Assembly: GCA_032622095.1 (NCBI GenBank)
Contig: CP136068.1
Location: 57,124,025-57,188,024 of the forward strand
Length of the DNA: 64,000 bases
Direction of reading: 5' to 3'
DNA from: Siphonodentalium dalli
Taxonomy: Eukaryota > Mollusca > Scaphopoda > Gadilida > Siphonodentaliidae
Below are positions 3,290 to 55,639 of the stretch, piece by piece. The first letter of the stretch is position 1. Each line of letters begins with the position of its first letter. The notes beneath the pieces were generated by a model that saw nothing but the letters and a program-made list of their open reading frames with translations, did no database searches and was not told where the DNA came from. The translations under genes were made by a program, and so were the position numbers.

Positions 3290-4502
3290 CTGGAATTAAA
3301 ATATTACCAAGACAAAAATTAATAAATTCAAAATTTTATGGATACATGTCATAATATATCCATACTAGTTTATATACAGCAATCCAATGTTAGAAGGAGG
3401 CAAGGAGCACAAATAATGAGTTACATAGCAATTATTCATATTTCGAAAATCAACTCATAGGACAGTGCAGCAAAATACATCAAGATACCAAATTATATAT
3501 ATATATCTATCCTGATATACAACACAATTTGACATCAGACTGAGTTGGAATGCAACACATTTTTGCCATGGCATAGGTACAAATTTACATTTGGAAAACT
3601 ATAATTCGACTTTACCCACTCTTAGTAAACTGCAGACCATCAAATGTATTAACAGTGTGACTGACCTAGGCTCCTGCGAATATTTGAACATGATCGAATC
3701 AAATACCGAATCGAATACTACCAAGTATTTGGGAATCAAATAGAATATATCAGTTCGGTGACAGGTAGTGATTAGCGAGAATACCCCATGTTTTGAGGGC
3801 GGTAAATAACATCGTATACAACCATGCATTCTTCATATAGAAATCGGAAGTTTATAAATTTTACAGTTTGTGTTGAATGAATTGTTGTAATATTCGTATT
3901 AGATCCCCGAAAAGAGATCAATGTTCTATGTCGGGAAATTAGATACAACAATCAACCAGAGGACAGTATACATTTAACGATAGTCATCATGTTTAGGTAC
4001 CGTACATATATATATATATCTGCGTTATTACAGAACCGTTGTTTATGCACCAATAACTATATTGAAAAACCTGATTCCAGGTCAGATGGCAATGATAACC
4101 ATTACAGTCCTATTTATTGAAATAGATGTGAATCTATTCTACATGTTCATGTATCAAAGTATGGTATATATCTGGTTCAGTACGGAGTTACATTTGGATT
4201 GTTAACACACACAGAATGAATTTTGAAATGATGTCACTATGTTATTGCTGTCCATATTTAAAAACACAGGTACACCCCACACGCAATCAGAAACAGACAG
4301 CACGTAGATGTTTAGTAATTAAAGTTCCATGTGTATGTTCTGTGTTGGAATGCTGAGATGTGACCTATTTGAAGCTTAGCATTTCACAATTTAATGTGAT
4401 CATATGTATTCCAGTCTGAGCATCAAGCTTAAAAAGATTCACATGAAGACCACTATTTAGTACTGAATGTTGAGTTTCGAATGTTATTATCGGCGATCTT
4501 GG

Positions 4503-7057
4503 TAGTGATGTACCGATTATCGGTATCGGCTATCGGATCGGGCCGATATATGCAAGATATCGGTATCGGCAAAATTTAGTCTCCAGACCAATATCGTTAA
4601 CCGATACATGTCGCGTCCTTTGTGAACGTTGTTACACCAATTCCTACTTTAATATTAAATAAATGACGGGAATTTCCAGAAAAATTAGCGACTATTTTAC
4701 GCACAGGTCAGCCCTCCATCACATACAGTGATATACTATGATGACAACATCCACAGGAGACTGCTGGTACACTCCTGACCCAAATAAACATTTCAAAAGA
4801 TACCGTAGTTCCATACGCTTAATAATTAAAGTTAAACATAAACTGTATACAATTAAAATTACTTGCGAGTAGTGCCGAGTAGCACACGTTGAATGCGAAT
4901 AACTGACACCCCTGGCATTAGCGTGAGAATGGAATCTTCCTATGACTGAATCAGACTGGTGTATCATTTAGTGATGTATTCATGGGGGTGTGGAATTAAT
5001 TCCGCGCCACATGCGACAGTTAGTTGTAGTGCTGAAACGGTTGACCTATTTTTGTAGCCAGTTAACCGTGACGTGTAACCGGATCATAACCGGTTATCCG
5101 CTATTTTCAACCTATGACTTGACACTGATTATTTACATCATAATATGTTTCAATATATCAGCATAATTTGATTTATTAACTGTATGGCAAACTCGCATAG
5201 TGTTTACACAGACAGAGCTTCTATTAAACGAATGTAAATCACCAAACACGAACGTTACAAAGCCACGACGTGTTGACAACTTTGCAGATGACACAGTGAA
5301 CTAAAACTCGCAGTTTTTATAAATAGACGTGTCATGCTTGACCTGTTTGTACTGCACTTGCAATTGTTACCTGACTTGTGATCATTCTCGTCTTGGGAAG
5401 AATATTGTGTGACCTATATACATGTTCGTACATGCAAATATCGGCAGTGTTTTATTTCCATTATAGTGATTGCGGGACTGGCCGATTATTAAGTCATGTG
5501 ACTCAGGTATTCTAACTGCTGGGTGTTCTTTGGCAACTTGAGATTGATAGCATGACTGACATCGATAAACACAATTATGAATTTTGTGAACTTTATGTAG
5601 TTAACAAATGAAAATTTAAAAAACAGCTGAAAACAGTGTTTTCTGTTATAAGATAATCAAATACTGAGAATTTATAGTCATTAGTTGGATGCAAATAAGT
5701 GCGACTGCACGGGAACACCACTTTGATTCGAGTTCATTTTAACTTCATCCACTGAGATTAATAACTCAAACTCAGTAATGTTAAAAGTATAGACCGAGCG
5801 TATCTAAATAGGGTTGGTTCCCAGAGTTTACATTCTGCCAATTTATCTTTGAAATGTGCACAGGCATTTCTTGGGTATCTATGATAGTATGATGATACTG
5901 TCTACAAGTAGTGAGTCGGAGAGTAGATGTCAAATGACCACGCCGTACTGCATTGAAAACGATTGTATTGATCTTTGCCGATGACCCAGTGGCGTCAGAG
6001 CACGCGGTTTACCGGACATCGGAACATCAAAGATGACGTCATGCATCTTTGATGTTTAGCCGCCAATGCCAGACTATGTAATCTGCCATTCATGGAAGAC
6101 TTTTGATCTGAAGGACCTTAACACGTTAGTTTTTTCAGTGACATTGCATGTGTGTATTACATGGCGGTTGACCGGTTAACCGGTTGATCCTAGTTCAACC
6201 GGTTGCCGATGGTAGCCGGTTGTCAACCGGTTATCCGGATATCCGTTTCAGCACTAGTAAGTTGTCACATAGTTATTATCTTCCCAAGGCAAGATCAAAC
6301 GATTATTTGCATGCATTTTATGTCATCGAGTAGGAATCACTAATAAGCCACGTGTTGACAGATGACACAGTAAACTAAAAATCACAGTGTTTATAAATAG
6401 ACAAGTCACACTTGACCAGTTTGATTAAAGTCGTCGCAGTCGTGACTCGCAATTCCTCAATATATAGAAACATCACGTGTTAACAACATTTAAGTGTGTG
6501 TGTTTAAAGTACTTTTGATTCAAATTGATTGACGTTCTGGTATACGATGACTGAAGATGGAGGAGTTGCTTAACTTGTTTGATGGAACCATCCGAAAAAT
6601 CAGAGTGCTCTATGGGCAGGATTTGTATCTGCTGTCATGGGCACTGGGCAGAGAAAATGTCAACAATTTATGCGGGACATTGCTGGTGTTATCAAACGCA
6701 AGTTCAACTTCTGAACAAGATTGAGTTTGGCAAATTGAAATTGAGTCATTGACTCAAATGGATTATGGACTGATTCGGTAAGGCACAGTAACGGAATCAA
6801 ACAAATATTGAGGAAATCTTTTGAATGCAACGAAATATTTAATCATTTTGCCAGGGTTTTTGGGGAACGTAAACTAAATTAACTTTTTTTGTGACCAGGT
6901 TATCAGTTCTTTGCCGACAATACTTTGCAATTTAAAAGACAAATTGATATGGAGTTTTGTTCACGTAAAAGACTTATCGGAATCTGTATCGGATCGGCCG
7001 ATAATTCTACTGAAAATATCGGCTTTTACCGATAACCCCCGTATCATTACAGCACTA
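4503..7057. mobile_element. middle hAT-type element of the nest
   Basis: Ends TAGTGATGTACCGATTATCGG (first 20 bases at 4,503 on) and, read inward from 7,057, TAGTGCTGTAATGATAC with the same subterminal ATCGGTA/GCCGATA boxes. Perfect 8-bp target duplications GATCTTGG lie at 4,495-4,502 and 7,058-7,065. Removing the inner element leaves about 1.3 kb without coding capacity, so it is a non-autonomous hAT. It inserted in the outer element (3,667-7,437). Confidence 0.85.
5027..6256. mobile_element. inner hAT-type element of the nest
   Basis: Perfect 14-bp terminal inverted repeats TAGTGCTGAAACGG (5,027-5,040 and the complement at 6,243-6,256) are followed by subterminal ACCGGTT/AACCGGTT boxes. 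The flanking 8-mers GTTAGTTG (5,019-5,026) and GTAAGTTG (6,257-6,264) match at 7 of 8 positions. The length is 1,230 bp with no coding capacity. Its interior (about 5,265-5,345) shares 'GTGTTGACA', 'GATGACACAGT' and 'TTATAAATAGAC' blocks with the middle element (about 6,350-6,410), so the two are related families. Confidence 0.85.
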
Positions 7058-7542
7058 GATCTTGGTAATGCGTTCCATTTCATCGGTCCTGTTTAGGTGT
7101 ATTTCGTCAAAATATGATCTGTAAACACTCAAAGTCACTACTTTCTAAGATGGATGGAGGTTGGTCAATAAGCCGAAAGGGACCCTCAAGACGAATTACT
7201 CTCATATTCAGGGATGTTTACGTCTCTATTGCAATGTCATGGATGTGTGCTTCTTGCAGAACAATGCATTTCAACCTTCACATTCATGTGTGGTGAATAT
7301 TCGGACATAAAATAACATCGCAAGGATAAACGGAAATATTAGATAGATATTTGCCGCCGATTGTTGAAATGAATACGAATCGAATACTCAGGTCAAATTT
7401 AATATCATTTCGATTACCGAATATTCGCAGGACCCTAGACTGACCCATCATGATAGTTTATATTTGTGAAGCCCGGATTTCGAAATCATTTGTGCCAATC
7501 AGATCTCACTCTAAGAAGAAAGCATCCAATGGAAACGATTAA

Positions 7543-7780
7543 CCCTTCCATGACTGGAGTTTCCTGAAATTTTGCGAAAACTCTGTGCCAATGCATTCTC
7601 TTATGTATGCGAGTCTCCCATAGGTAGCCTTGCATATATAAGAGAATACATTGGCCTAACAATATTTACATTGATCTTGTAAGCCAGTGCATTCTCCTAT
7701 AGGCTCCCTATGAGAGACTCGCAAATAAAAGAGAATGCACTGGCACAGGATCTTTAAATGCTGCACCAGTCATGAAAGGG
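7543..7780. mobile_element. TTAA-flanked piggyBac-type MITE, copy 1
   Basis: The ends are CCCTTCCATGACTGG and the complement of CCCTTTCATGACTGG, flanked on both sides by TTAA (7,539-7,542 and 7,781-7,784). TTAA targets and CCC-starting ends are typical of piggyBac-like elements. The interior carries inverted segments related to 'GTGCCAATGCATTCTCTTAT'. It has no coding capacity. Relatives lie at 38,942-39,105 (opposite orientation) and 45,188-45,431. Confidence 0.8.
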
Positions 7781-7840
7781 TTAACATAATATAATTTTGG
7801 GAAATCCCATATTTATTAAGTGTAATTAAAAAGTACTCAC

Positions 7841-7923
7841 TCAAACTTCAATTGCATATCCTTAACTGACTTCTCCATATCCTGTACTCTGTTCAGAAGC
7901 ATTTTATTCTCACCCTGCTCTTT
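7841..7923 (-). CDS. CCDC89: CCDC89 coiled-coil exon
   Basis: The exon is 83 bases, acceptor TTCTCAG with a good pyrimidine tract and donor GTGAGT. It encodes KEQGENKMLLNRVQDMEKSV...MQLKF and ends in phase 2 with GA, completed to Glu by the next exon. It aligns with the vertebrate NKQAEICQLEEKLE...ERFE segment. The intron that follows (about 4.55 kb) holds the three-level hAT nest (3,667-7,437) and a TTAA-type MITE (7,543-7,780) that ends only 60 bases from this exon. Confidence 0.87.
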
Positions 7924-14630: not shown

Positions 14631-14982
14631 GCCACATGCCACTAATGGCTCTTGATTTTGTTATTGCTTGATAAAAAAATTTAAAGACTAAACATAATGC
14701 CAGAAATAATAAGAATCCATATGTCAAGTACTTAAAATCAGATAATATATAGTAGTAAAAAGTAACATGCAGTCAAAATGATCACCATCTATGTTGAATA
14801 GTGATGTCTCATGTAACTTTATAATGGTTCTCACACTGCACATGGGATATTTATGATAGTTCAATCATCAACAGATGTCATATCAGCAGATTCAGATGAG
14901 TACTGTATATTAAAAGGCCATTTACAAATAAATGCACACAAACATACATGCATTGCTTCCTAATAACTTGACCTTAAATTAC

Positions 14983-15455
14983 CTGAGTCTGTTCTCGAGA
15001 CCACAATGCTGCTCTTTTAGGCTATGATATTTTGTATCTAATGCTGTGATTTCCTCATCTTTCTCTTGTATAGCTTTTGAGAAGAGTTTTCTATTCTCTT
15101 CTTTCAGGGTTAAGTTTTCCTGTCTCAAATCTTTATTCACATTTTTGTATTCATCTTTTATTTTAATCATTTCCTCGTGATTTTCTGCAAGTTCTTGGAA
15201 TCGCTTATCCAGAATTTTGTATTTCCTAATTTCCATATCAATAGTTTCTTTGGCACTATCTCTAAATTCGATTAGTTCATCGTTAATTCGCTCAACTGTT
15301 CTCATTCTCATTGTTGTATTGTCAGCCTTCTGTTTCAAAATCATAATCAGTTCACACTGCTCATCTATCCGAGATCTCAGCATTCCATTCTCTGATTTGT
15401 CATCATCGGACAGACCTTTCAACTTTTGCATGTTTTCTTTCATAGCTTTCATATC
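14983..15455 (-). CDS. CCDC89: CCDC89 central coiled-coil exon
   Basis: The exon is 473 bases (157 codons plus 2), with acceptor TTCCAG before GATATG and donor GTAATT. It carries the most conserved part of coiled-coil domain-containing protein 89. GLSDDDKSENGMLRSRIDEQ lines up with the vertebrate GLSEEE..SEKAMLRSRIEEQ block and is followed by a LIMILKQKAD segment. Further on come ELAENHEEMIKIKDEYKN and LKEENRKLFSKAIQEKDEE, matching the vertebrate LAANHE...KDEYK and ENSSLFSQAL segments. The whole exon is heptad-rich, charged and uninterrupted, so it should form a long parallel coiled coil. CCDC89 (BOIP) was described as a HEY1/Bc8-interacting protein and is testis- and cilium-associated in vertebrates; its biochemical role is unclear. 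The identification rests on recalled family sequence, not on a search. Confidence 0.92.
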
Positions 15456-16351
15456 CTGGAAGCATAAATATAGCATGATATATATGTACATGTAGAACTA
15501 CAATCGCACAGGCATTGGCAAAACCCTCACATAATTGAAACCTTTTCTCCAGCATGTAAACAAGTACTGGCATACACAGGGTTCATACAGGTTCCCAAAA
15601 ACTAAATTTAAGCACTTTTAAGCACCTTTTTAATGACCTTTTAATGACTTTTCAAGCACCCTTTTAACACTATCACGGGCAAAACAAAATGTTAAATATT
15701 GTTTGTTGATTATGATAACTTCACATACATGTACATTTGCAGGCTCCACTACAATTAAATAATCTAATTTACTAATTAAATCAGTTTAAATACTAAGACA
15801 TGGTGTATATATTGAAGCTGTTATTGGTGGTTGGGAGATGGTTCAATCACAGAACCTCATATGTATTGTTTCAAAACCTAAAAGTAACAGAAAAGAACCC
15901 AAGGAAAATTTAAAAGCATTGAACTTTTCAGACACACACATATAATATAAATTATATACCCAATATACATTATTATATATTAAATGAATAAAGCTACACT
16001 TTCAGTCTCTGATTTTATCATTTAATAATAATTTACTCAAATACTTTGCCACTGTACATAGTGACATTTTAGCTTAATTAATATATTTTAATATATTTAT
16101 ATAGTATAATATAGTATTTTATAGTACTGTATTATATAGTACATATACACATGTATATATAAATTATCTGCTTGAATGTATCAATGCTTTGGTTTGATTG
16201 GTACTGTAAGTACTGTTTTGTTACTGATTGGTGTTGAGACAATAGGCATATGTGATCCTGTGATAACGATAATTTTTTTTTTTAAATAACTTAATTTAAT
16301 AAACAGTAAACAAAAACAAGTTAATGTCATTTCATGATTAAATCAAATGAT

Positions 16352-16471: not shown

Positions 16472-17486
16472 TTATTTTTCTTTAATAGATTGTCGATACA
16501 GATTGAATTTAACAAGCCAATCACAGTGGCCAGTTTCTTCGAGTTTTTTTGCTGCCTCGTCGGAAGAGTCCTCAAGACAAGCTATGTCTGCACACAGTCT
16601 TTTTTTAGCAGTAGTCATTTCTTGCATGCGTTCCACCTTCGCCTTGCGCTTCTTGTCGTCGGATTTTCCCATTCGCTCGTATACCAGATGATTCTCATAT
16701 TTTTTTCGAGCACCCTTACAGTACTGAATTATGGAACTGTTGATTTTTATGTTTTTCGTTCCACCTTCTCTGGCGATTCCGTCGCACACTAATCGTTCCG
16801 CGCAAAATGTCTCTTCTTTCTTGTTTTCAACAAGAATTTTAGAATTCACCGAAAATCCCCTTTCGACCGAGGCCTGTCCATGTGACAGGACCAGAATCAT
16901 CTTTAAAACACACCATAAGTCAATATACCTCTCGGAGTTAATGAATTTGATCAGGAATTGATCAACCCGAGTTTCCTTGTCCTTGTCAGTCAATTTGGCA
17001 TAGGAGAATTCTTTGAATGCAGAATGCTCCTTCTTCGCGTCGGTAAGAAATTGGTCATACTGCTGTATGGTATCATCACACTTTTTTGCCGCAATCCTTT
17101 TGTTGTCAACGAGAACACTGAGTACACGTGTCAGTTTACTTTTGCACTTGGCAGGGTCGGATGCAATGATGCGCGGAGAAAAGCAACTAGTATTCCTGCA
17201 TAACACAGAACTGAGTGGTGTCTTGGTCAATAAGCGTGTGGTCAAAACTTTGAGGGCCTTTCTACAGTCCATTTTGAAGGTGATTCTCAATCGTCCATTG
17301 TTGACTTCCGCCAGGGTCCGTTTGGTATTGAATCCAAGTTCCACTTTGTTATACGAAAGAACATCATCGTCATTCTCTGCAAGCTTATATGAGACCAGTT
17401 CCGCCTTTGTTTTCAACGAGTCTAATGCAGATGGTTTTATTACTCTACTCATAACCGTTCTGGTCATGTCCTCGTATTCATCCGCG
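16472..17486 (-). pseudogene. hAT transposase, C-terminal part (interrupted)
   Basis: This is the continuation of the transposase after the inserted element, beginning with IADEYEDMTRT. It contains a helical insertion region and the C-terminal hAT dimerisation motif, seen as SHGQASVERGFSVNSKIL followed by CAERLVCDG. It ends with a basic, Lys-rich tail (KKRKAKVERMQEMTTAKKR) and the stop at 16,472. No other frameshift or stop is seen, so the insertion is the only visible lesion, and it must be fairly recent relative to arrival of the hAT copy. Confidence 0.88.
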
Positions 17487-17492
17487 ATAAAT

Positions 17493-18815
17493 GAGGGCCC
17501 CTTCCCCCTCCCCCCTTGAGTCCGGAATCCAGTTTTAAAATGACGCTGGAATCCGGAATCCAGCTTCAAATTGATCCTGGAATCCGGAATCCAGTTTAAA
17601 GAACAAACACCGATTTCACGTTCAGTTTACATGATATTATAGATTAGTTTTGTGATACCCATAATATATGAGCAGGTGGATGCTCGCATCCCGGTCCCAC
17701 ATATAAAGGCACCCCGTCTTGAACCCCGGTAGTGGAAACTTCACCAATGAGGTCCAGAGCAGTCTACCTTGCGGCAGTTTACAAAATGTTAGGATAAGAG
17801 TAACAAAGGTATAGAATATGCGTCTAGACTTCCTTGGATTAACCGATCTTGATCACATTCCAGTGTAAAAACTAATAAAATAAACGCTCTTTATATGGGC
17901 GTGATATATTGACCCAGAATTAATACCCCGATGTGATAACACATGTAAAACCCTCGGGTGGACTCCAAACTCGAACCCAACCTGCACCGGATCAGTAATC
18001 CCAGTAAAACCAGTTTGGATTTACCCATGCCGTCACATGGGGACGCACATGGAAGGAAATCCCAACAAAAAAGGGGGGCCCTATTCTATAGCGGCAATTG
18101 GCCGACTGTCACCGAACACGTGGTCCCGGCCTGCACTCTGTGTTAGAAAACCCAAATACTAAATTAAGTTTAGAAAGTTGATACGTATCTTAAGCCACCA
18201 CACATAAACCAATACCGAATGATGGATGGACAGACGGTCGGACATATCAATAACATAATACGCACGCTCCACTAGAAAATTGGGGATTAATCTATGATTA
18301 CATATTGATTTTGATATATAAATATATGCATGTAGCACGGGAGTTGGAGCTCCCGATAATATGTATATATCCACTGGTAGTCAATATACTGGTAGCACAA
18401 TATAACATACATATTTTTGAATTGTGGGTTAAGTTTATGCCCACAGCGCATTTTCACGGAAATATAATTGGCAGTCCATCATCCAAATTGTTTTGCTATG
18501 TCTTTGGGGCAATTTTTGAGATATGTTGCCGCAAATAATGACCGAAAAGATAAAGAGCACCGTATACAAACGAATATATACGGACTAAGTCCTATAAGAT
18601 TAAGAGTGTGCATCAGATTGGATCCCATATAAAATTCATGATATTATGATCTATTATGACCAAATGAGGAACCAAATCGCAATATTTCACCCGAAATGGA
18701 ATCCGTTTATATAAATACATGAATCCGGAATCCAGCTTAATTTGTGTCTTGAATCCGGCGTACGGGTCCAAAATGGGTCGAATCCGGCGTACGAAAAGGG
18801 GGGGAAGGGGCCCTC
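17493..18815. mobile_element. 1.3-kb inverted-repeat element inside the hAT transposase
   Basis: The ends GAGGGCCCCTTCCCCC (left) and its complement (right, ending at 18,815) are perfect for 16 bases. The target duplication is ATAAAT (17,487-17,492 and 18,816-18,821), or ATAAATG if the first G is shared. Subterminal repeats GAATCCGGAATCCAG occur three times near the left end (17,519-17,595) and once at the right, with GAATCCGGCGTACG twice at the right. There is no coding region, so it is non-autonomous. The superfamily is unknown; a 6-7 bp duplication is unusual. Confidence 0.88.
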
Positions 18816-20089
18816 ATAAATGGAATCATAGGATGATCTGTTTGCATCATTGTGAGGTAAGGTGTCACATCCTTTGATAATGTTACGAAAAAGTACAGTT
18901 TAGCGAGGAGAAGAGGGTCTTTGATGTGGGTTTTCACTGTAGAAAAAGCTTTAGATGTTGGAGTTGTGTAGTTTTTGTTCCTTTCCACTTCGGTCACAAA
19001 TGTTGAGACGTCATCGAGAATTTCAATCGCCCTCTCCGCCACACGAGTATTTTCCACCCAACGGTGGGGGCAGAATTTCAATGGGAATGTGTCGTGAGCA
19101 GTAATATCCTTATAGTCATCACGTCTTGCGGGCGAGTTTTTGAATAAGGAAAACAAACATTTCAGGAATGAATCTAGCTCCCACTCGGTTTGTTCCATTG
19201 CAGCGCGAAATGAGTTGTGCACGGTGTGGAGACTGCAAGTACCAATGTCGACCAAAGTTTTGTCAGTATGTTCCGTAAAGACCTTGGTTTTAAAATCTTT
19301 GAGGAATTTCAGATTTACGTTAGGGCCGTCCATTGAAATTTGCAGGAGCTGGGACAGATTTAAGTTGTGTGTGATGTGTTCAAACTCTTTGAGACAGTCA
19401 TCCGCTCGCCCGTGTCCCATAAATGTGGAGTCAAAATAGCTACTAGACACTAGATTTGTAGAGGTATCCATGAATCTGATGTGCATGTCCATTTGTTTGT
19501 TTTGTAGGGTTGAATTTAAACTTTCGTCAAACAGGAGGACGTATGTATCGGCGTTCTTCAGACGTGAAGTCATTTGCTGTCTGAAATATGGAGCCAAACC
19601 ATATTTGGTGAGATATGCCGTTTTGCGATCGCCACATGAAAACGATTTTGCTATGTTGGAGTCGGGAAACATCTTCGCAAACAGTTCTGCGGTGTGTGTC
19701 GAACTGTTGTAGCTATAATGTGACTCAACAACTTTCATCGTCCACAAGATTTCAGATTTGACCACTTCCTCTGTTCTCACAAATGGTGTCACTGTTGGGC
19801 CTCTGGATGTGGATGAAACTGATGTCGATGTGGAGTTTGTGGATGTTGTGGTCATGGCATTCGTCGCATTGTTCATAAACACCGAAATGTCATTCGACTT
19901 TTGACTCCGGTCGATGTGTCTTTTTGACAAAATGTGGCTTTTCAGGGCCGCCTCGCCCATACCGGCTATTGTGAAAGTTTTCGCGCATATTACGCATTTT
20001 GCCGAATGAATGTCTTGATCGAGCGACAACCACTGCTTATACTTTGTTTGTTTACACCATTCGACATTGAACTTGCACTTTCCCGGCAT
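18816..20089 (-). pseudogene. hAT transposase, N-terminal part (interrupted)
   Basis: The ORF starts at ATG (MPGKCKFNVEWCK). A BED-type zinc finger follows, with C32, C35, H52 and H58 (CVICAKTF...ALKSHILSKRH) and a preceding W20. A Ser/Thr-rich linker (about 75-100) leads to the RNase H-like core. The likely first catalytic Asp is D188 in YVLLFDESLN, and a second candidate is D254 in SMDGPNVN. The frame runs clean to IPF, where the 17,493-18,815 insertion begins, adds about 25 foreign residues and ends in a stop inside the insertion (18,737). Transposases of this kind cut and paste hAT DNA, leaving 8-bp duplications. Removing the insertion and one copy of its 6-bp duplication gives an uninterrupted frame of 762 codons with the part at 16,472-17,486. 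Confidence 0.88.
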
Positions 20090-20699
20090 ATTTATTTGTT
20101 CAGCCGGTTAAATTTTCTATTAACTTACATGATTGGCTGGTGTAAATTTTCCCTCCAATCAGAGCGAAGCTTACATATGCTTTGCGGAGAGCACACAGTT
20201 TCGTACTATTGAAAAATCGTACGTATCGGAAACGATGCTATTTTTAGCGATTACGCGATGTCTCCCTCACTTCCGCCGCAATGTTCCGTTCTATTTTTAC
20301 GATCATATCGGCGATGTTAACAGTTTTCTAGGTATAAGACCGCCCATGCCTTGTTGTTTATTCCCAGGCCCGGTCTTATACCAGAATTTAAGCACTTTTA
20401 ATGACCTGAGTGGTATTAGGGTGAGAATTTAAGTACTTTTAAGGGCCTTGAAAATAGAAAATCAAATTCAAGCACTTTTAATGACTTTAAGCACCTGTGC
20501 GAACCCTGCATACATCAAATTATATATGAAATAATACTCTATCACCCTTTTCAAGTCAATATTGATTTATAAATTGATTTATTGATTTATATATTGATGA
20601 TCAATAAATTTAACAAGTGGAAAAGGTGAGCATTACAGTATTATTTCATATATCATTACTGGAGACTGGAAAATGGATATCATATTTATTCAACCATAA

Positions 20700-27535: not shown

Positions 27536-27918
27536 TATATGTCCGGGCTGAGACATGGAATACACTAACATTTGAATTGTTTTTAAATTCACAAATTTGT
27601 TGATTTTATTCAACTTTTTCGTTCTGGAGCACACTAAAAAGTGTAAGCGGCCGGCTCCAATTAAAAGGTGTAAGCGGCTTATGTAAGCGGCTTATGTGCT
27701 CAGCGTTATAGGTAATCGGATTAACTAATTGGCGACTCTAGAATATTAGCATTAGGTGTTTAAATTTGTATCATTGGAGGTTTTTGGGGAAATAATATTT
27801 TAGAAAGTGAATACAGATGTATTTTACATGATAAAATAAATTTAATCACAATGCATAAAATAATATAAAGACATTAAATACATAGAACATAACAAACATA
27901 CGGCATACATTTTCATGT

Positions 27919-30031: not shown

Positions 30032-30520
30032 TTATGTGGTGCGGCAGGGGAAACTTAGTCTCCTTACCTCTATTCCTTCTGTATGTGACTGAAGACTTCT
30101 AAAGAATTTTCTGAGATGTGGTTTTAAACGAATATAAAATGACTCAGTCCATAAATCATTTGATATTACTAGTATCCTCTCAGCCCTTAATGTAAAAGGT
30201 AGGGGTGCTCTCATGATTGTTTACTGTCTTTAGTTAACTCATAATACTCATGATAAGAGGCAAGGAAGCAGTCTGAAGCACAATTGGTTGGTATCGCATA
30301 TGAATTTATGATAATGGAATAACCCACATATTCAGGGAGCAAATTACTTTTGAAATTTTGATTAGCAAATAACCTCATAATGACATAATTAGATAGCATT
30401 GTTCTGAAATCATATAAAATTCATACCAAATTGCATAGCTATTATCCAAATTTGGGTAGCAAATTGCGATGCGATACCAGTTAATTTTCTCCCTGCACCT
30501 ATTCAACCCAACTTTAATAA
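30032..30520. other. no recognisable feature
   Basis: AT-rich spacer between the minisatellite and the second palindrome cluster. The phrase 'TATCGCATATGAATTTATGATAATGGAATAACCCA' near 30,290 recurs within cluster 2 (30,640), showing local duplication. Confidence 0.4.
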
Positions 30521-38530: not shown

Positions 38531-38941
38531 AATACCCACAGCATACATTAACCTGGGCAACGCCGGGTAACCCTGCTAGTTATTAATAAATGTGAATTTG
38601 GCCTCCCATATGTATGCACATGTCTCATGTTTGTTATATATTTTATGTGTTTATTATATACGGTATGCATTATGATTAAATACAGTTATCATTTAAAATA
38701 AATGTATTCACTTTCTAAATTATAATTTCCCCAAAAACCTAAAATGCCCCAAAACACCTAACACAATAGTCTAGAGTCGCCAATTAGTTAATCCGATTAC
38801 CTATAATCAGGGATGGATCCAGGGATTTTTTGGGGACACCTGTTTTGGGACCACGATATGCCGAAGGTATATCCCGAGGGACGTAGGCCCGAGATGGGGG
38901 TAGGTACGGGAGGGGTCACCCCTCCCTTAGGTGCAGCATTA

Positions 38942-39105
38942 AAGATCCCGCTTAAGAAAATGCACTGGCTTTCAAGTTCAAGATAAAGGCCAATGTATTA
39001 TCTTATATATGCGAGGCTCCTTAGATGGGAGACTCTCATTTATATAAGAGAATGCATTGGCACAGGATTTTTGCAAAATTTCAAGAAGCCCCAGTCATGA
39101 AAGGG
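38942..39105. mobile_element. TTAA-type MITE, truncated copy 2
   Basis: Read on the minus strand from 39,105 this begins CCCTTTCATGACTGG, continues with 'TTGAAATTTTGCAAAAATCC' and 'GTGCCAATGCATTCTCTTAT', and follows copy 1 (7,543-7,780) for about 160 bp. TTAA lies at 39,106-39,109. The other end has lost its terminal repeat. Confidence 0.7.
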
Positions 39106-39285
39106 TTAAAATATTTCTCACTGGATTAAGCAAATAAAGGCTCTATATCAGTGTTAAATCCACTATTTCCCTCACAAACAACTTACTAAATGGCATCTAA
39201 AATGATAATAAATACCACCTGCATGTATACTTTGTGCAATTAATTTTTTCGGGCTGGAACATAATGACAAAATAACAATTTGAAT

Positions 39286-41466
39286 CAACACAATTCTATT
39301 TTACTCCACGCAATCATTGAAAAAGTTAAACCTCAGTCACCGATAAACGACAGCCAATGGATAAAACACTATAGTTCATTGCTATGTTCAAATATGCCCG
39401 AAAATAATAGTAACGAAGAGTCAGTAATATCTAATATTTCAAACCTATATGAAGAGGATGAGAATAATCACCTGAATACTCCTATAAATTGTGCTGAAAT
39501 TAAAAAAGCAGTAACTAACTTGAAAATGAATAAAAGTGGGGGTCCAGACTTGATCATAAATGAATTCATTAAACATAGCTCAGACACAATGTCTTTGATT
39601 TTAGCGAAGTTTTTCAACAAAATTTTAGATTGCGGAATATTTCCCTCAGAATGGAATCTTTCCCTCCTAACATCTATCCACAAATCAGGAGATCCAACAG
39701 ACTGCAACAATTATAGAGGGATAAGCATATCTAGCTGTATCGGAAAGTTATTCACAAATATACTACAAAGAAGACTTGGGGAATTTTTAGAAAGTGGAAA
39801 CGGTTTATCAATGAATCAAATAGGATTCAGACAGAATTGTAGGACAACTGATCATTTATTTGTCATGAAAACTTTATTAAATAAATATATACAAAAAGAA
39901 GATAAGCAAATATACACAGCATTTATTGACTTGAGAAAAGCATTTGACTCTGTATATAGACCATACTTATTTCAGAAACTGAGAGAGAAAGGAATAAATG
40001 GAAAATTTTATCATATTGTGAAAAATATGTATTCCAATACCTACTATTCGTGTAAATTACAGAATGGATATAGTGAACCATTCAAAGCAGATCTAGGGGT
40101 GAAACAGGGTGATAGTCTCAGCCCCATACTTTTCAATCTATATATAGATGATTTAAAAGACTACATAGACAAGAACCGTTCTGACCCCGTTACTTTAAAT
40201 TCTATTCATTTCAACCATCTCCTATATGCTGATGACTTGGTTTTAATTTCAGAGACACCTGAAGGCCTGCAGTCATGTCTTGACTCATTTCAGAGATACT
40301 GTATAGATTGGAGACTATCTGTTAACTCAAACAAATCAAAAACTATCATTTTCTCAAAAAATGGAAATACTAATTTTAATACCAACTCTTTTTACTATGG
40401 ACCTCTAACACTAGAAATGGTCGAAGAATATAAATATTTAGGGATAATATTTCACAAGAGTGGTAAATTGATATCAGCCGCATCAAACCTGTCAGATAAG
40501 GCAAAGAAGGCATATTATGCACTGAAAGGTAAATTAAAAGAATTTCCAAACTTATCTGTCAGAAATTGGATGTGTCTAATTAACTCGATGATTCTCCCCA
40601 TACTTACTTATGGATCAGAAATATGGATATCTGATTTTAAAATTAACTCTAACTCACTTAAAAACCTCTTTAGCTCTTGCGTTGACAAAACATACACATG
40701 CATATTGAAAGATATACTGGGAGTTAACAGCAAGTCTACAAACATAGCAGTATACTCAGAAGTGGAAGCATTGCCAGTACACCTGACAATACTTCATGGG
40801 ATATTTAAATTCCACAAAAGGTTGATGGGCCTAACAGTCAAACATGGCGAATCACAACAACATAAACTCTTAATTGCAGCTTTTAAAGAAGACATGGAAC
40901 TGAAAAGAATAAAACCAGCTTTCTCGTGGTCAAACAACATAACTAAAATTGTAAAATTTGTAGACACCAGAATAGATAATTTTGAAGATTCACAATTTAA
41001 AGATGTAATAAGGAACACTTACAACAAAAAGATAGCAAACGAATATAAACGAATGAAAACCTCAAACGAGGGGAAATTAAGATTCTACAGTAAAATCATT
41101 ACAGGATCCAAATTTAGAGACTATCTTAGTTTCAATATACCAAAAGATCTCAGAAAAGAACTAACTAAAATGAGAATAAGTGCACACACATTGAATATAG
41201 AAACTCTGAGATACACAAAACCAAAACCAATAGATGAGTTAAAAAGATTTTGTCCACATTGTCCGGATAAGGTTGAAAACGAAACTCATTTTCTATTACA
41301 TTGTGGGCTATATAATGATATAAGAAGTAAATACAACATTTTCCACATTAGTCATTATATGAATAACGCCAAAGCCATACTGAATCCATCAACCTTCACA
41401 AGTACTAAACAAGTATGTAAATACATAAAAGAAGCTATGAAAAAACGATTATCTATTCAAACATAA
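39286..41466 (+). CDS. reverse transcriptase of non-LTR retrotransposon (N-terminally truncated)
   Basis: About 726 codons are open, to the stop at 41,464-41,466. There is no native start: the frame runs in from the flanking duplication, where only a TTG occurs at 39,280, after a TGA at 39,265. Reverse transcriptase steps are plain: NYRGISISSCIGKLF, QIGFRQNCRTTDH, FIDLRKAFDSVYR (about residue 215, first catalytic Asp), GVKQGDSLSPILFNLYIDDL, YADDLVLISE (about residue 316, the catalytic Asp pair) and the thumb motif YKYLGIIFHKSG. The C-terminus has a knuckle CPHCPDKVENETHFLLHC (about residue 658). This family copies its RNA into nicked DNA in the nucleus. Loss of the endonuclease makes the copy defective. 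Positions count from 39,280. Confidence 0.9.
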   Translation, partial: QHNSILLHAIIEKVKPQSPINDSQWIKHYSSLLCSNMPENNSNEESVISNISNLYEEDENNHLNTPINCAEIKKAVTNLKMNKSGGPDLIINEFIKHSSDTMSLILAKFFNKILDCGIFPSEWNLSLLTSIHKSGDPTDCNNYRGISISSCIGKLFTNILQRRLGEFLESGNGLSMNQIGFRQNCRTTDHLFVMKTLLNKYIQKEDKQIYTAFIDLRKAFDSVYRPYLFQKLREKGINGKFYHIVKNMYSNTYYSCKLQNGYSEPFKADLGVKQGDSLSPILFNLYIDDLKDYIDKNRSDPVTLNSIHFNHLLYADDLVLISETPEGLQSCLDSFQRYCIDWRLSVNSNKSKTIIFSKNGNTNFNTNSFYYGPLTLEMVEEYKYLGIIFHKSGKLISAASNLSDKAKKAYYALKGKLKEFPNLSVRNWMCLINSMILPILTYGSEIWISDFKINSNSLKNLFSSCVDKTYTCILKDILGVNSKSTNIAVYSEVEALPVHLTILHGIFKFHKRLMGLTVKHGESQQHKLLIAAFKEDMELKRIKPAFSWSNNITKIVKFVDTRIDNFEDSQFKDVIRNTYNKKIANEYKRMKTSNEGKLRFYSKIITGSKFRDYLSFNIPKDLRKELTKMRISAHTLNIETLRYTKPKPIDELKRFCPHCPDKVENETHFLLHCGLYNDIRSKYNIFHISHYMNNAKAILNPSTFTSTKQVCKYIKEAMKKRLSIQT

Positions 41467-41754
41467 CCCACCCTAATGTCAGCTCTTATTTAAAAGTCAA
41501 ATAGAATAATATAGATGTTATTAGGACATAACCTGACATAACTATTTTTTTATGATAACTATAATCTTTCTCATCCTGAAACACACCTTTTATACAAGTT
41601 ACAACATTAACAATTTAATGAAATACAATATGTTATTTACAGATATAACTATTAGTGTTTATATATGTCTGTTCATTTGTGTTCAATGTTATGTTTATAA
41701 TACATGTATTTATGGATTACGTCGAAATGATAATTCCAATAAAGAAATTTGAAA
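39286..41754 (+). mobile_element. 5'-truncated non-LTR retrotransposon
   Basis: The unit is flanked by AATTTGAAT at 39,277-39,285 and 41,755-41,763, a 9-bp direct repeat expected from target-primed reverse transcription. It begins inside the coding region, so the endonuclease part is lost, and ends with an A-rich AATAAAGAAATTTGAAAA tail that includes an AATAAA signal. It lies inside the CAGGG-ended hAT-type element. The uninterrupted ORF suggests a fairly recent insertion. The clade cannot be assigned with certainty from these motifs alone. Confidence 0.82.
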
Positions 41755-42309
41755 AATTTGAATATCGACTGTATATTGATGATTTGCATTGCATGTTGTT
41801 GAATTATAATAGAAGATTTCCTTCAAAACATGGAAAATTCAGCTTTAATAAAACTAACCATCTGCAATTTGGGGACATTTAGGCCACCAGAGTTTGGGCG
41901 CCCAAACCTGTAACAGGTATCAAAAGAGCCCTGGATCCTTCCCTGCCTATAATGCTAAGCACATACTAGTAAGTCGCTCACACCTTTTAATTGGAGCCGG
42001 CCGCTTACACGTTATAGAACAAAAAAAATAACAAATAAAATCAACAAATTTGTGAATTTAAACGTTAATGTATTCCATGTCCTAACCCGGACATACGGTA
42101 TATACCAAAGGTAATTCATATCCATTTATAAACAAAGAGGATAATGTGACATCAAGTCTGCTTACCCCTTTTATTTTGGAGACGGCCGCTTGCACTATTT
42201 AGTGTGTTCCAGAACGAAAAAGTTGAATAAAATCAACAACTTTGTGAATTTAAAAAAATTCAAACGTTAGAGTATTCCATCTCTGACTCTCAGGCCGGAC
42301 ATAGGAAGT

Positions 42310-44295: not shown

Positions 44296-47200
44296 TCATA
44301 GGAGTGCCTGTATCGGAGGCTGTATTTCTGGCCAACTTGGGATATATACGATCACGCCAGTACGTATGGGCCGTAGGACGGCGACATGTCACTCTGTGTC
44401 CAAAGGTTCGCTAATCCAGGCCTTTAGATTAGGCTAATTTGGGGACATTTTGGGGGACAGAGGTGATAGGTTTGAGTGAGGGGGGGTACCCCCTTGTGAC
44501 TATTGGGGGTATGGGGGTTTCCCCGGGGAGAATTTTGTTTAAAGTAAACCTAAAATGGGGGCTGTCTGGTTGTTCTGAAGCATATGAAAGGTGAAAGAAA
44601 TGAACCAATGGCCCCCATATCATTTCCTGCAACTTGGGCTTATATCAGCATTCAGCAAGTTATGTTACATATGTACCCTTATATTTTCAAGTTTTGTAGG
44701 TCACAATTTATTGAATATTGGGAATATTGGATCATTTGACATCAACAAAGCCATTTTATAGATGTATGGTGCTTGAAAGTTCACCAAGCAGTTCACCAAC
44801 ACACTGATCATGGGTATTTCCAATTAAAATTTAATTTAATCTAACTACTAGTACATGTATATTTGTTGTGGTCAAATGAAGCAATATACACACACAAACA
44901 GGTCATAAAAATGGTGATTTTGCGGTGACATTTTGTCAAATGTGCCCTCTAATTTGGGGACATTTCTATAATTTGGGGACATCGGTAAACGCTGTGAGTT
45001 GTGGGGAATATTAAGGCCTGGCTAACCCAAGGTTCATTATACCGAAGTTTCGCCATTCCCAAGGTTCTCTATATTCCTCGATATTCAGAAGGTTTTTATA
45101 ACTTTTATTTTGAAGTTTCTTTCTATATTCTAAAGTTTTGAGAGGTTTCTTTATCATAAGACTCTTTTTATGAAGGAAATAACTTAACCCTTTACCCAAC
45201 AAACCGGCCAAAACCGGCCAAATAAAGCTTCAACAGCCTAAAATATCTTCGGTCTGTCTCAATAGAACCATACAAATATGGATATCATTGGAACCGGCTC
45301 CTTGACCACATTGTGATAGTTACAGTTATGCCCTGTGCCAATGCATTCTCTTATATATGCGAGTCGACCATAGGTCGACTCGCATATATAAGAGAATGCA
45401 TTGGCACAGGGCCCTTATGTTGGGTAAAGGGTTAAAGCCATAAAGGTACTCAATCCGATAAGACGCTGCTAAATTACTCCTTCCTTGGTTTGGGTGGGGA
45501 AAAAAATATTTGATTAGTGTCGAGGAACCCACCCATCAAAGCTCAGAGTAATTAGATATCGATCTTTGCAGTTTGCTATTTTTATTGTTTCTGGGCCTGA
45601 TCGTGCCAGAAGGACGAGGTCAAATGGGCGGTCTTCCAGATAAAGATGGATAACTGTAAAATCGTGGTAATAATAACTACATGGTATTAGAGTTGTCCAT
45701 CTTTTCTGGTTAAATACGCCCAGAATAGCAAACCTTCAGAATAGCGAACCTTCGATGTCTGAATAAGAACCTTTGGAATAGCGAATATGGAATCTTCGAA
45801 ATAATGAACGCGATCCTGTATGAAGAGCCCATGACACGTCCATCATTAAATGTATACATGTTTCATGAGACTGTTTATATATACATATATAAGACTGGAG
45901 TAAAGTTGAGACCAACATGTCTTTGTTAATTTTGGTGCCCAGATTTCAACGAAATTTGGTGTGGTGACTCAGGGTGCCCTGGCAGAGTGTATAATGGCGT
46001 TAGTTTTTCAAAATTTTGATTTAAACAAATTTAAATGAATAAAAAAAAATGAACATATGTGAATATTCAGGTACAAATAAACCTATTTGCACGAGAATAT
46101 GTTGCAGCACCAGATATAGAGGAATGTGGGCCACAGTTAGACATGGGTCAGAGTGAGATATTGCCTCTAACATTTCTCTAATTTCCAGACCAATATCCAT
46201 GGCGCCAGTCAAGCGATATTAGCCATATAGCACATTTTACTATATTTCTTCAAAATGCAATCATCAGGTGAAGGTTGAATCTGGCCAAGCGACCAATTTT
46301 CAAGGCAAAATTATTTTAATTAAATTTTTGCAATTTTAAAGGTACTCAATCCAAATTAACCCTCGCAGATTATTATTTCCTTGACTTCGGAGGTGAAAAA
46401 TATTTGATTCAAGTCGAGGAACCCACAACATCAAAGCTCATAGTGATCAGATACCGATTTTTAAAATCTATCATTTAAATTTGTTAGTGGCCCAGCAAAC
46501 AGCAGACGAGAATACTTTTTCTGACCAAATTGCAGATGAAGATGGATAATTCTAAAATCAACTGTTTTTTTGTGTGTGTCAGATGTTTGACAATTTATCA
46601 GCAATATTCGTTGAGCAAAAAGTTGATAAATTACAAGTTTTTGTCAATTTTATGCTATAATTGACTGCAGTTTTTTTTTAGCAATTAATCGATTCTGTCA
46701 ACTGAAGCGGCATTTCAAAAAATCTTCTTGTTGTTGGAATCTGATGATATGGGGACTATTGATTCGGATTGAGGACCTTTAAGGAAAAATATCTTTATTG
46801 GATAAATTTACATATAATACTGAATACATTTTTATGAAAACGGGTTACGTGGATGGGGCACAATGACTCAATGAGACATAATTTATGGCCTGTGGTAGGA
46901 TCCAACTTCAGTAGATGATAGGCACTTCAAAAATGAATGAGATAATTTGCCAAATGACTATTGTTTTGGGGCTGGAGTGGATAAATATTTTAGATCAAAC
47001 AAACTGATGTCATTGTGCAATAGTGATATGTTTGGTGCATTTCCTATATGGTTACTACTTAGGGGTGACCCCTTCTGTGAAGTAGATGATAAGAAACAAG
47101 TATTAAGGGTGGTCCCAGCTCGAGATTGCATGCTTGTTCGTGACTTTTGTGAGCTTTTATGGCTAGAATTGTATTTTGACCTGAGTCACATTCACAGTGA

Positions 47201-48380
47201 GTGGGTGAGGCTGAAGTCGTTGATAACTAAATTTAGTAATCTGTAATCACTAAATTGACTAATACAATCCTAATATTATTAGATTAGTAAGCCACATGAA
47301 CGCTTTCACCGATTACTGCGTCCACAAGTTCCAGCTACGCGCTACGTTCAACGGTTCATGATTGAACTATACTGTGTATAGTAAATCAGTCAGCTCTAAA
47401 ATGTCCATTTTCTGATTTCCTTGACACAAGTTGAGGTTTGACATGACAGTGTTAGATATTAACAATTAAATTTACTATTTAGAGAAGTAGTTAGTAGATT
47501 GAACGATTTGCCGCTTGCAGTTGAAACTCTAAGTCTAACCACTAAACCAGTCCAGGTGAAAACAGACTTAAAATTGAACAATAACAGAACAAGTCAAATC
47601 GCCGTGGTGAGCAGTCTGCACAGACCAGTCCACATTCCATTCCAGTGACCTTCATTTTCATATTTTTTTCAGTCACAGATTCGTCATTGAGTTTCTTTCC
47701 GACTGACTGATTTTCACTTTGAACACAGTTCACTTCAACTTCAAAACAACTTAACAAGTTGTTGTTGTTGACATGTTGTTGTTATTCTTCTTCTTCTTTT
47801 GACTGCTTTGACTCTAAAGTCATTCCAGTAATTGGCTCGTAGTGCTATCTTCGCTTGTGCTTTCTCGTTTGTTCTCAACGCTTACGTGCTGTGATACCGT
47901 TGTACATTTAAAATACGAGCGATAACAATAACAATCAATTCCATTTCAAATTTCGCAAACAAGAGAGCGCCACCATCTTGTAACGAAATTACGTCATCAT
48001 TTCCAACGTTGCTATGGCCTGCCAGGGGACGTAATATTCTAACTGTAATGGTACGGAATCTGGCGAGGTTTGCCGAATGCTATGCGCCCGCGTCAGCTAA
48101 ATCCACATGAAGCATTTAATTTTGAATAAGGTTGATTTTGTTTTTCAAATTTAATAGTGTTGCTATAGGGAGGCTGATCGAAGAAGAAAAATAAATTCGT
48201 TTTATTAATTTGACAATTCTATTCCAACATGGCGGCCACCATAGGGCCCCATAGGTCTGAATCGCCCAGATGTAAACAAAAAAATTTCATGTTGATAGGG
48301 TATAGAAATTACTGACGTCACAACTATACTTGCGTCGCTTATGTTACTGTAAAACAACCCTTTGGGTTGTGATTAGTTAG
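44296..48380. repeat. segmental duplication, copy A
   Basis: Blocks at 44,300-44,360, 45,700-46,330, 46,785-47,200 and 47,170-48,375 recur in the same order and orientation at 52,005-52,060, 52,228-52,915, 52,915-53,600 and 54,605-55,625. Examples are 'TCTGGCCAACTTGGGATATA', 'GAGAATATGTTGCAGCACCA' and 'CCCAGCTCGAGATTGCATGC'. Similarity in the best blocks is high, with small indels. Copy A has gained the MITE at 45,188-45,431. The sequence has no coding capacity that I recognise. Confidence 0.8.
45188..45431. mobile_element. TTAA-type MITE copy 3 with perfect 40-bp palindrome
   Basis: CCCTTTACCCAACA at the left and its complement TGTTGGGTAAAGGG at the right are flanked by TTAA (45,184-45,187 and 45,432-45,435). 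Near the right end lies a perfect 40-bp inverted repeat (45,330-45,369 and 45,373-45,412) separated by only ATA. It contains 'GTGCCAATGCATTCTCTTAT', shared with copies at 7.5 and 39 kb. The ends are piggyBac-like; no coding capacity. Confidence 0.85.
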
Positions 48381-52081: not shown

Positions 52082-52370
52082 TTCCGAAGGTTTGCTATTC
52101 CGAATGTTCACTATTCCCAAGGTTCGCTATTCCGATGGTTCTCTATTCCGATGGTTCTCTATTCCAAAATTCCTCGTGTGGTTTTTGTGGGGGGGGGGGG
52201 GGGTGGGGCTGCAAATTTAATTAATTTCTGGTTAAATACGCCCAGAATAGAAGACCTTAATAGAAAAACCTTCAGAATAGCGAATCTTCGGAAAATAACG
52301 AACATTTGGAATAGCGAACCTTCGGAATAATGAACCTTCGGAATATGGAACCTTCGGAATAATGAACCCG
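52082..52370. repeat. GGTTCGCTATTCCGAA minisatellite in two opposite orientations
   Basis: About five units of GGTTCGCTATTCCGAA-like sequence (52,082-52,168) are followed, after a G-run and an 80-bp spacer, by about seven units of the complement (TTCGGAATAGCGAACC; 52,255-52,370). A decayed counterpart exists in copy A at 45,025-45,100 and 45,725-45,815. The array can fold back on itself. Confidence 0.75.
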
Positions 52371-55300
52371 ATCCTGTATGAACATCCCACGACATCAATA
52401 AATGCATAAATGTTTCATGGGACTGTTTATATATACATATAAGACTGGAGTAAAGTTGAGACCAACATGTCTTTGTTAATTTTGGTGTCCGGATTTCAAC
52501 GAAATTTGGTGTGTGGTGACTCAGGGTGCCCTGGCAGAGTGTATAATGACGTTAGTTTTTCTAAATTTTGATTTAAACAAATTTAAATGAATAAAAAATA
52601 TGAACCTATATGAATATTTATTTAGGTACAATATAAACCTATTTGCACGAGAATATGTTGCAGCACCAGATATAGGGGAATGTGGGCCACAGTATAGGGG
52701 AATGTGGGCCACAGTGAGACATGGGTCAGAGTGAGACATTGCCTCTAACATTTCTCTAATTTCCAGACCAATATCAATGGCGCCAGTCCAGAGATATTAG
52801 CCATATAACACATGTTACTATATTTGTTCAAAATGCTATCATCAGGTGAAGGTTGAATCTGGCCCAGCGACCAATTTTCAAGGCAAAATTAATTAATTTC
52901 ATTTTTGCAATTTTAAGGGAAAAATATCTTTATTGGATAAATTTACATATAATACTGAATACATTTTTGTGATGTGGAAAACGGGGATTTATTACACTAT
53001 TTCACATAGCCACATTTGATTTATTTATAGACGTTTATGTATGCTTGACTTTCAGCGAGTTACTAGGGTGGGGGGGCACAATGACTCAATGGGACACAAT
53101 TTCTGGCCTGTGGTAGGATCCACCTTCAGTAGATGATAGGCACTTCAAAAAGGAATGACATAATTTTCCAAATGACTATTGTTTTGGGGTTGGAGTGGAT
53201 AAATAATTTAGATCAAACAAACTGATTTTGTGCAATAGTGGTATGTTCGGGGCGTTTCCTATACGGTTACTACTAATTAATTAAACGTGCATATATGCAC
53301 GTTTACTGAGTTCACCTTAAAAGACCATCGAACCACAAAAATTACTAGATCATGTCATGAATCTCTGCACTAGATATGACCGTACTATAGACCATATTAC
53401 ACCAATTGCACTGTACAAAAACCTGGGAACATTTTTATGTTCTGACAGGGAAATTTATAACAATGAATAAACAAGAAGGGAATATATTTCCCTTTATTGT
53501 TAATACTTGTTCCTCAATAATCTACTTCACAGTAGGGCTGGTCCCAGCTCGAGATTGCATGCTTGTTTGTGACTTTTGTGATATTATATCATACTCTCAG
53601 GTGTCCTATCATTGTGATGGGTCAATAATATTGATAGTGGAGACTTAGACTGAAATTAATAATAGTGATGGAAATTTAATTCTATTTAATTCTATTTTAA
53701 TTTAATTCTATATATGTCTCTGTGCCAAATAATTTACTGATCATTGAGAATTTTCTAATTGCCCGGGAGGAATTACATTAGAGTAAGGGACGCAAGCAAA
53801 ATCAACCCACAAAGTCACTTAAATCTTGCAATTTCAAAGTTAGACCTTCACATTCTATGACTGACACACATTATTAAGAAACAGGTATTTCATAATTTAT
53901 TACCTGTACTGTTTTTTCATTACCGGTATTACAAACTTCCCTTTCGCAACAGCAAAAACTTTGTACTGCTGGAATATATCATTCTCAACGGGCATAGATA
54001 CATAGAGATTAATGGCATGGTCTAAGAAAATGCTACCAGATTAAACATTTATATGACCATCTGCGATTGCCCCATGAGTCATGTAGAACTGGAAGGTCAT
54101 GACAGTTCGAACAGCTTGGCCTGGAATTATTATGTTTAGCATACAGATTATACCAATACCAATGTGTCAAGTCGACAATAGCAAGTATGCAGGGCTATAT
54201 TTAATAAATTTTCCACAAATAGCCACTAGTATATATGCTAGCCATGCTGACCGAGCTCCCGCTTAATGCTTAAGGTTTAAATAGAGAACACAGTGTTAAA
54301 ATCATGAAATATTTATTATGTGAGAATGCTGAAACAAATCACCGTTAACTTAATGGTGTTATTAACGGTGCATTATAATTATTATATTTAACTTGATCTG
54401 TCCATCACAGGAAACAGAATTCATAGATGGCAAGTTGAAAGCCTATCCTCTCACCAGTCACTACACTCTGCAGTGTGCCGAGACCAAATGGGAGATGTTC
54501 TTCTTTTCCTTCACTCACCAAGTTAATTGACTCACTTTGTCAGTCACCAATTCACTGGGCTTCACATGTTTGTCACATCTGTGTGTCAACTGCTCTGTAG
54601 CTGGCTATAATTGTATTTTGACCAAAGTCACACTCACAGTGAGTGGGTGAGGCTGAGCCAGAAGTCGTTGAAAACTAAATTTACTAATCTGTAATCACTA
54701 ATACAATCCTAATAGTAATAGACTAGTAGTACTAGTAGTAAATCAGTCAGCTCTAAAATGTCCATTTTCTGATTTCCTTGACCTGACAGTGTCAGCTATT
54801 AACAATTAAGTTTAGAGAAGTAGACGGAACAATTTGCTGCTTGCAATTCTAACCAGTCCAGGTGAAAACATACTTAAACTTTAACAGAACAAGTCAAATC
54901 ACCGTGGTGACCACAGACCAGTCCAACGTCCACAGTCCACTCCACTGTCTCCACTGACCATGACAGACACCATCATTTCGATTTTCATATTTTTTCAGTC
55001 ACAGATTCATCATTCAGTTTCTTTCCGAATGACTGAGTTTCACTTCCACTGTTCAACCAAGTCCGGAGGCTTCACACACAATGTATGCCCAATCGATTGG
55101 CTTATACCAATAAAATTCAGCACGAGAACAACAACAACGGAGAATTTCGAATATGCACTCGCCGGTAACTTCTTGCACCTGGGTGCACCCATTTTGTAAT
55201 GAAAATTACGTCACCAATCGCAACGTTGCCAGGGGACGTAATTTCAAACAAACGGTTTGGAATCTGACGAAGTTTGCCGAATGCTATGTGCCTATGTCAA

Positions 55301-55452
55301 CTAAATCCACTTCAATCATTTAATTTTGAATAAGGTTGATTTTGTTTTTCAAGTTTAACAGTGTTGCTATGGGGAGGCTGATCGAAGAAGAATATAAATT
55401 CATTTTGTTAATTTGTCAAGGTTATTCCAACATGGCGGCCACCATAAAGGCC

Positions 55453-55502: not shown

Positions 55503-55639
55503 ATAAAGGCCCCAGTGGTCCGAATCGCCCGGATGTACACAAAAAATTGAGGTTGATAGAGTATAGAAATTAGTGACGTCGCTTACGTAACCGTAAAACA
55601 ATCTTTGGGTTGTGATTATATTGTGGTTATTCAACTTTG

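Follow-up and report, generated by a model that had tools for sequence, protein, structure and literature searches.

Three nested hAT-type elements with differing subterminal motifs in a scaphopod intron

Background

The question raised by this locus is how three transposon-like elements came to lie one inside another within a single intron of the scaphopod mollusc Siphonodentalium dalli. A preliminary description of the same DNA had seen in them three related families of non-autonomous hAT type, amplified perhaps by one transposase and prone to insert into each other. We analyzed the whole stretch of 64 kb in which they lie (hereafter the window). The explanation that we consider quite probable is a plainer one, namely three separate non-autonomous hAT-type transposons of differing lineages, which entered one intron by ordinary cut-and-paste insertion.

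The nest and its host intron

The coordinates of the intron and of the three elements, called outer, middle and inner, are collected in Table 1. The intron is flanked by exon-like frames on the minus strand (7841-7923, and from 3289 downward) with GT and AG splice signals, and the reading frame continues from one to the other. The nest together with one duplication makes up 3.78 kb of the ~4.55 kb, and without the nest and the neighboring inverted-repeat element at 7539-7784 about 0.52 kb of intron is left. The intron reported by the preliminary description is thus supported by frames and splice signals, but the name CCDC89 that it gave to the host gene is without database support; the one frame searched (172 aa, 14979-15497) gave weak database matches and one Pfam match below the cut-off, none of them named CCDC89.

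All three sets of borders can be read directly, as had been claimed. The outer element is bounded by GACTGACC followed by TAGGCTCCTGCGAATATT on the left and by AATATTCGCAGGACCCTA followed by GACTGACC on the right, the middle element by GATCTTGG and TAGTGATGTACCGATTATCGG on the left and TTACAGCACTA and GATCTTGG on the right, and the inner element by GTTAGTTG and TAGTGCTGAAACGG on the left and CCGTTTCAGCACTA and GTAAGTTG on the right. The duplications match in 8/8, 8/8 and 7/8 positions for outer, middle and inner, and the first 14 bases of the inverted ends in 13, 11 and 14 positions, respectively. The stripped sizes proposed earlier (1.2, 1.3 and 1.23 kb) agree with those measured. A second copy of the outer, middle or inner element was not found within the 64-kb window.

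Table 1. Positions in the window of the host intron, the nested elements and their sequence features
Feature	Positions	Strand	Details
Host intron	3290..7840	-	~4.55 kb, with an exon-like coiled-coil frame on each side; direct reading
Outer target-site duplication, left copy	3659..3666	.	GACTGACC
Outer element	3667..7437	.	3771 bp including its guests, 1208 bp without them; inverted ends TAGGCTCCTGCGAATATT / TAGGGTCCTGCGAATATT
Outer inverted arms	3666-3684 / 7420-7438		95% identity
Outer target-site duplication, right copy	7438..7445	.	GACTGACC
Middle target-site duplication, left copy	4495..4502	.	GATCTTGG
Middle element	4503..7057	.	2555 bp including its guest, 1317 bp without it; ends TAGTGATGTACCGA / TAGTGCTGTAATGA
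Middle, left TATCGG subterminal array	4518..4606	.	7 hexamer matches
Middle, segment shared with inner	6355..6423	+	contains TTTATAAATAGAC (TATA-like)
Middle, right TATCGG subterminal array	6975..7034	.	5 hexamer matches
Middle target-site duplication, right copy	7058..7065	.	GATCTTGG
Inner target-site duplication, left copy	5019..5026	.	GTTAGTTG
Inner element	5027..6256	.	1230 bp; perfect 14-bp inverted ends TAGTGCTGAAACGG (5027-5040 / 6243-6256, 100%)
Inner, left AACCGG subterminal array	5077..5095	.	3 hexamer matches
Inner, segment shared with middle	5282..5349	+	contains TTTATAAATAGAC (TATA-like)
Inner, right AACCGG subterminal array	6172..6232	.	8 hexamer matches, palindrome AACCGGTT counted twice
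Inner target-site duplication, right copy	6257..6264	.	GTAAGTTG (7/8)

Probable membership in the hAT superfamily

Non-autonomous hAT elements are the best reading of the outer, middle and inner elements. The inverted ends of hAT elements begin with the consensus YARNG; we found TAGTG in the inner and middle elements and TAGGG at the right end of the outer element, and the outer left end, TAGGC, deviates at position 5. The hAT assignment of the preliminary description is likewise supported by the 8-bp duplications, matches of this kind being more numerous in the window than in shuffled sequence, and by the short inverted ends. Arrays of subterminal repeats, a feature of hAT elements that is not strictly defining, are clear in the middle and inner elements and weak in the outer one. 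The Buster group has the duplication consensus nnnTAnnn, which is fitted by none of the three duplications of the nest, and none fits the consensus nTnnnnAn that is given for the Ac group in the consulted part of PMC8961557. As described in an excerpt of PMC3942097, hAT elements have 8-bp duplications and inverted ends of 10-25 bp.

A Pfam scan of 11 of the 44 listed open reading frames of at least 30 aa gave no match, and hence no transposase remnant and no hAT dimerization domain was seen in them, as is expected of non-autonomous elements. Comparison by tblastn of the two transposase-like frames of the window with the three elements gave weak matches to the middle (E 0.22) and inner (E 0.37) elements, and an Rfam search gave none. 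Searched as exact patterns, the inner, middle and outer ends and the segment shared by middle and inner had no match in viral_contigs, nor had the shared segment in genome_contigs, results that say little since these are viral and prokaryote collections. A full-text literature query with the short end sequences returned no related title among the matches listed, and one for hAT elements nested in each other, or preferring each other as targets, returned no title on such a nest among those listed. The observed/expected ratio of CpG was also tried as a ranking of age and rejected, because it does not separate the elements: it is 1.0 in both outer and inner and 1.08 in the middle, against 0.69 for the whole window.

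Subterminal motif arrays

The ends were characterized by the most frequent hexamer in the 120 bp at each end of an element (240 terminal bp), and its count was compared with the top count in each of 1000 shuffles, which allows for the picking of the hexamer; Fisher values for the same hexamers are optimistic, since these were chosen after the ends had been seen. The top hexamer of the middle element is TATCGG, with 12 occurrences at the ends and none in the interior, and that of the inner element is AACCGG, with 11 and none; neither count was reached in any of the 1000 shuffles. Each half of the palindrome AACCGGTT enters the inner count, and the 11 matches therefore represent 7 sites; the shuffles were counted alike. 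For the outer element the top hexamer is CGAATA, with 5 occurrences at the ends and 2 in the interior (CAAATA also occurs 5 times), a weak signal reached by 68 of the 1000 shuffles. None of the hexamers tested for one element occurs at the ends of either of the others.

The two strong motifs have CGG in common. Of the terminal CGG sites, 15 of 16 in the middle element read ATCGG, and 16 of 22 in the inner element read CCGG, 11 of them AACCGG; the CGG content of the outer ends is not significant (6 in 240 bp, p 0.10). A sliding count over the 64 kb places the densest 300-bp stretches for each hexamer on the elements of the nest. A stretch at approximately 45151-45500 also reaches 3 AACCGG, the count of the left end of the inner element alone. 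One stray TATCGG lies at 4488-4493, one base beyond the left duplication of the middle element, and another lies within the interior of the inner element.

These arrays resemble sites read by known hAT proteins. In Hermes, according to an excerpt of PMC10368747, BED domains bind subterminal sites at the left end that are repeated and asymmetric and include a palindromic pair, and no BED domain is bound at the right end, so that an array need not serve at both ends. The available portion of PMC8097297 describes CGGBP-type hAT-derived domains, most of which recognize CGG, each with a specificity of its own, and some of which read AT-rich motifs, and four hAT proteins whose motifs match their own subterminal regions.

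Relatedness of the three elements

The stripped elements were compared by local alignment on both strands, with 200 shuffles for each comparison. The outer element aligned with the middle and with the inner one at the level of shuffled sequence in both orientations, the observed scores being reached by 37 to 165 of the 200 shuffles. Between middle and inner a single segment is significant; it lies on the same strand, spans 69 columns at ~86% identity and scores 86 against a shuffle maximum of 34 (n=200); on the opposite strand the observed score was reached by 23 of the 200 shuffles. The segment, which has a TATA-like core, extends weakly under looser alignment and may be a promoter remnant of lost transposase genes. 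The right end of the middle element and the inner element also both begin with TAGTGCTG, the first 8 bases, and only these outermost bases are common to them. Of the relationship proposed earlier, then, a single segment common to middle and inner survives; the several shared internal blocks are reduced to that one, and the outer element falls outside any family of three. The alignment also rejects a single family inserted three times.

The shared segment lies ~255 bp from the left end of the inner element and ~615 bp from that of the stripped middle element, and this inequality raises a serious rival: the 69 columns could stem from a third repeat, a fragment of which entered each element, or was captured by each, independently, in which case middle and inner would not be kin. 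We regard this account as plausible, if not probable. It would explain why the significant similarity is limited to one segment at unequal distances from the left ends and why the remainder of the two elements aligns weakly, but the segment has the same orientation in both, its TATA-like core is accompanied by CGG-type ends in both, as fits shared ancestry, and a third copy of it was not found in the window.

Chance of nesting and order of insertion

A preference for mutual insertion is not needed to explain the nest, and a single example cannot test such a preference. We modeled three insertions into the intron by size only, taking the other intron sequence as 523 bp, or as 773 bp with the element at 7539-7784. 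A second insertion then falls into the outer element with a probability of 0.70 (0.61 if the element at 7539-7784 was already present) and a third into the middle element with a probability of 0.43 (0.40), so that both steps together, and thus the nest by size alone, have a probability of 0.30 (0.24). After the first insertion the intron is mostly transposon, and nesting follows without targeting. The presence of a second nest likewise indicates that nesting is not special in this window.

The order of insertion was said to be readable from the nest. What can be read is that each host copy predates the entry of its guest; where that entry took place cannot, and to this extent the order was overstated. 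The middle element may have brought the inner one along into the outer element, so that the inner insertion need not be the youngest event of the intron, and the outer element may have brought its guests into the intron. In the first of these cases, the middle element gained the inner one elsewhere, and the two entered the outer element together as a composite of 2.55 kb in which the middle ends were intact. We rate this as unlikely, even though the inner element sits in the interior of the middle one, both ends and arrays of the middle element are intact and the topology of the nest would be compatible with it. On this account the inner insertion would predate the arrival of the middle element, which fits the one mismatch in 8 of its duplication against none in the other two, and the mismatch, described earlier as odd for the youngest insertion, would be no paradox. 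One mismatched duplication is, however, common anyway. If the three duplications have diverged equally, by 1-10% between their copies, the probability that exactly one of them shows a mismatch is 0.20-0.44, and the specific pattern observed has a probability of 0.07-0.15; the supposed oddity therefore disappears.

One transposase or several

In the account closest to the preliminary description, one transposase mobilizes three non-autonomous families that are related and insert preferentially into one another, first the outer, then the middle and last the inner. It draws on the similar stripped sizes, on the TAGTGCTG that starts both the inner element and the right end of the middle one, and on the segment common to these two. 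We consider it very improbable, because the outer element is unrelated to the others, the subterminal motifs are distinct, size alone gives the nest a chance of 0.24-0.30 and the second nest of the window is made of other element types. Inverted ends and subterminal motifs shared across all three, as one transposase would predict, were not found, the motifs being a proxy for recognition. With top end hexamers that differ, those tested being absent from the ends of the others, the suggestion of a single enzyme is not upheld. By analogy with the known hAT proteins, a different transposase would seem to have acted on each of the outer, middle and inner elements, which is not proof. The start common to the inner element and the right end of the middle one makes cross-mobilization possible but unproven. 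Moreover, hAT elements of pandoraviruses whose termini share 5-8 of 10 bases with an autonomous element were assigned to it, as stated in an excerpt of PMC6004678, and differing internal motifs therefore do not strictly exclude a shared transposase.

Ends compared with shuffled sequence

The window was scanned for YAR-type ends with an inverted match of at least 11/14 and a duplication of at least 7/8, with 40 order-2 shuffles as the control. The scan gave 8 matches, the outer, middle and inner elements included, against 0-3 in each shuffle (44 in total, n=40). The best inverted match was 13/14 in 1 shuffle, 12/14 in 7 and 11/14 in 20, with no match in the remaining 12. The 14/14 of the inner element was thus reached by 0/40 shuffles and the 13/14 of the outer element by 1/40. 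Because the 11/14 of the middle element was reached by 28/40, it is the perfect duplication and the motif array that carry the call of this element. When the left 150 bp were aligned with the right 150 bp with gaps allowed, each of the three elements scored below the highest of 500 shuffles (44 against 51, 43 against 67 and 48 against 52), which indicates that the inverted repeats are short. That the nest is a chance pairing of short repeats is rejected by the scan and next to impossible: although a match of at least 11/14 with a 7/8 duplication does occur in 28/40 shuffled windows and the inverted match of the middle element is weak by itself, the window exceeds every shuffle in the number of matches, 14/14 and 13/14 are among the three of the nest, two of its three duplications are perfect, and the motif arrays lie directly inside the named ends of the middle and inner elements.

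Other elements in the window

Several further repeats were seen in the window. A hAT-like element of 3138 bp at 38808-41945, with CAGGGATGGATCCA ends and a perfect 8-bp duplication CCTATAAT, interrupts a repeat of which an uninterrupted (empty) copy, reading CCTATAAC at the insertion point, lies ~11 kb away at 27538-27884. This element contains a frame of 732 aa (39268-41466) with a reverse-transcriptase domain (Pfam RVT_1, E 2.4e-37) as well as a stretch matching the inverted-repeat element at 7539-7784. The latter has ends TTAACCCTTCCATGACTGG / CCAGTCATGAAAGGGTTAA and related stretches at 38953-39113 and 45330-45412, and we take it to be piggyBac-like by its TTAA. On the minus strand at 16472-20107, two frames of 456 and 384 aa appear by eye to be one transposase-like gene; a Pfam search at 0.01 gave no match for either. 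The stretch that separates them carries a perfect 18-bp inverted pair (17491-17508 / 18800-18817) with ATTTAT on both sides. A candidate element of 163 bp at 30333-30495 has CAGGGAGCAAATTA-type inverted ends (13/14) and a duplication CACATATT/CACCTATT (7/8). A duplicated stretch of several kilobases occupies 45724-48375 and 52294-55618, in collinear pieces that are 70-97% identical.

Proposed origin and significance

In the explanation that we favor, three hAT-type elements would have been inserted by cut-and-paste, each with an 8-bp target duplication; with their own transposase genes lost, they were presumably moved in trans. The middle and inner elements probably derive from related but distinct hAT lineages whose transposases would read CGG-containing subterminal repeats; they retain one homologous segment, perhaps the promoter of the lost transposase gene, behind the different end codes TATCGG and AACCGG. 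The outer element, with ends richer in CGAATA, would come from a third, unrelated lineage, and separate transposases may have served the elements. A more specific version, which we hold with little confidence, makes middle and inner sister lineages in which one transposase promoter was kept and the end code was switched between TATCGG and AACCGG; if it is true, the nest preserves two stages in a shift of binding specificity within one transposase lineage.

The nest as such is ordinary and its value modest. It brings together three hAT-type ends with differing subterminal codes, two of them in elements with a homologous internal segment, and offers a compact test case for changing end recognition by hAT transposases. 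It also cautions that nesting alone is a poor guide to insertion order.

Comparison with known systems

The closest parallels are found in three known systems, each described here from excerpts of its source. Like the non-autonomous deletion derivatives of BuT2 (PMC3942097), the elements of the nest have 8-bp duplications and short inverted ends and have lost the coding part; they differ in being ~1.2-1.3 kb each, with no two sharing both ends and interior. The middle and inner elements resemble hAT-19 and other CGGBP-type hAT elements (PMC8097297) in having ends dense in CGG motifs that differ between elements, but the DNA-binding domain of the nest's transposases is only presumed and the outer ends are not significantly CGG-rich. 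Although the motif sequences differ from those of Hermes (PMC10368747) and the binding sites are putative, the nest resembles Hermes in that its inverted ends are followed by several short repeats, distributed unequally over the two ends and in part palindromic, and the arrays of the inner element are Hermes-like in their asymmetry, with 3 matches on the left and 8 on the right.
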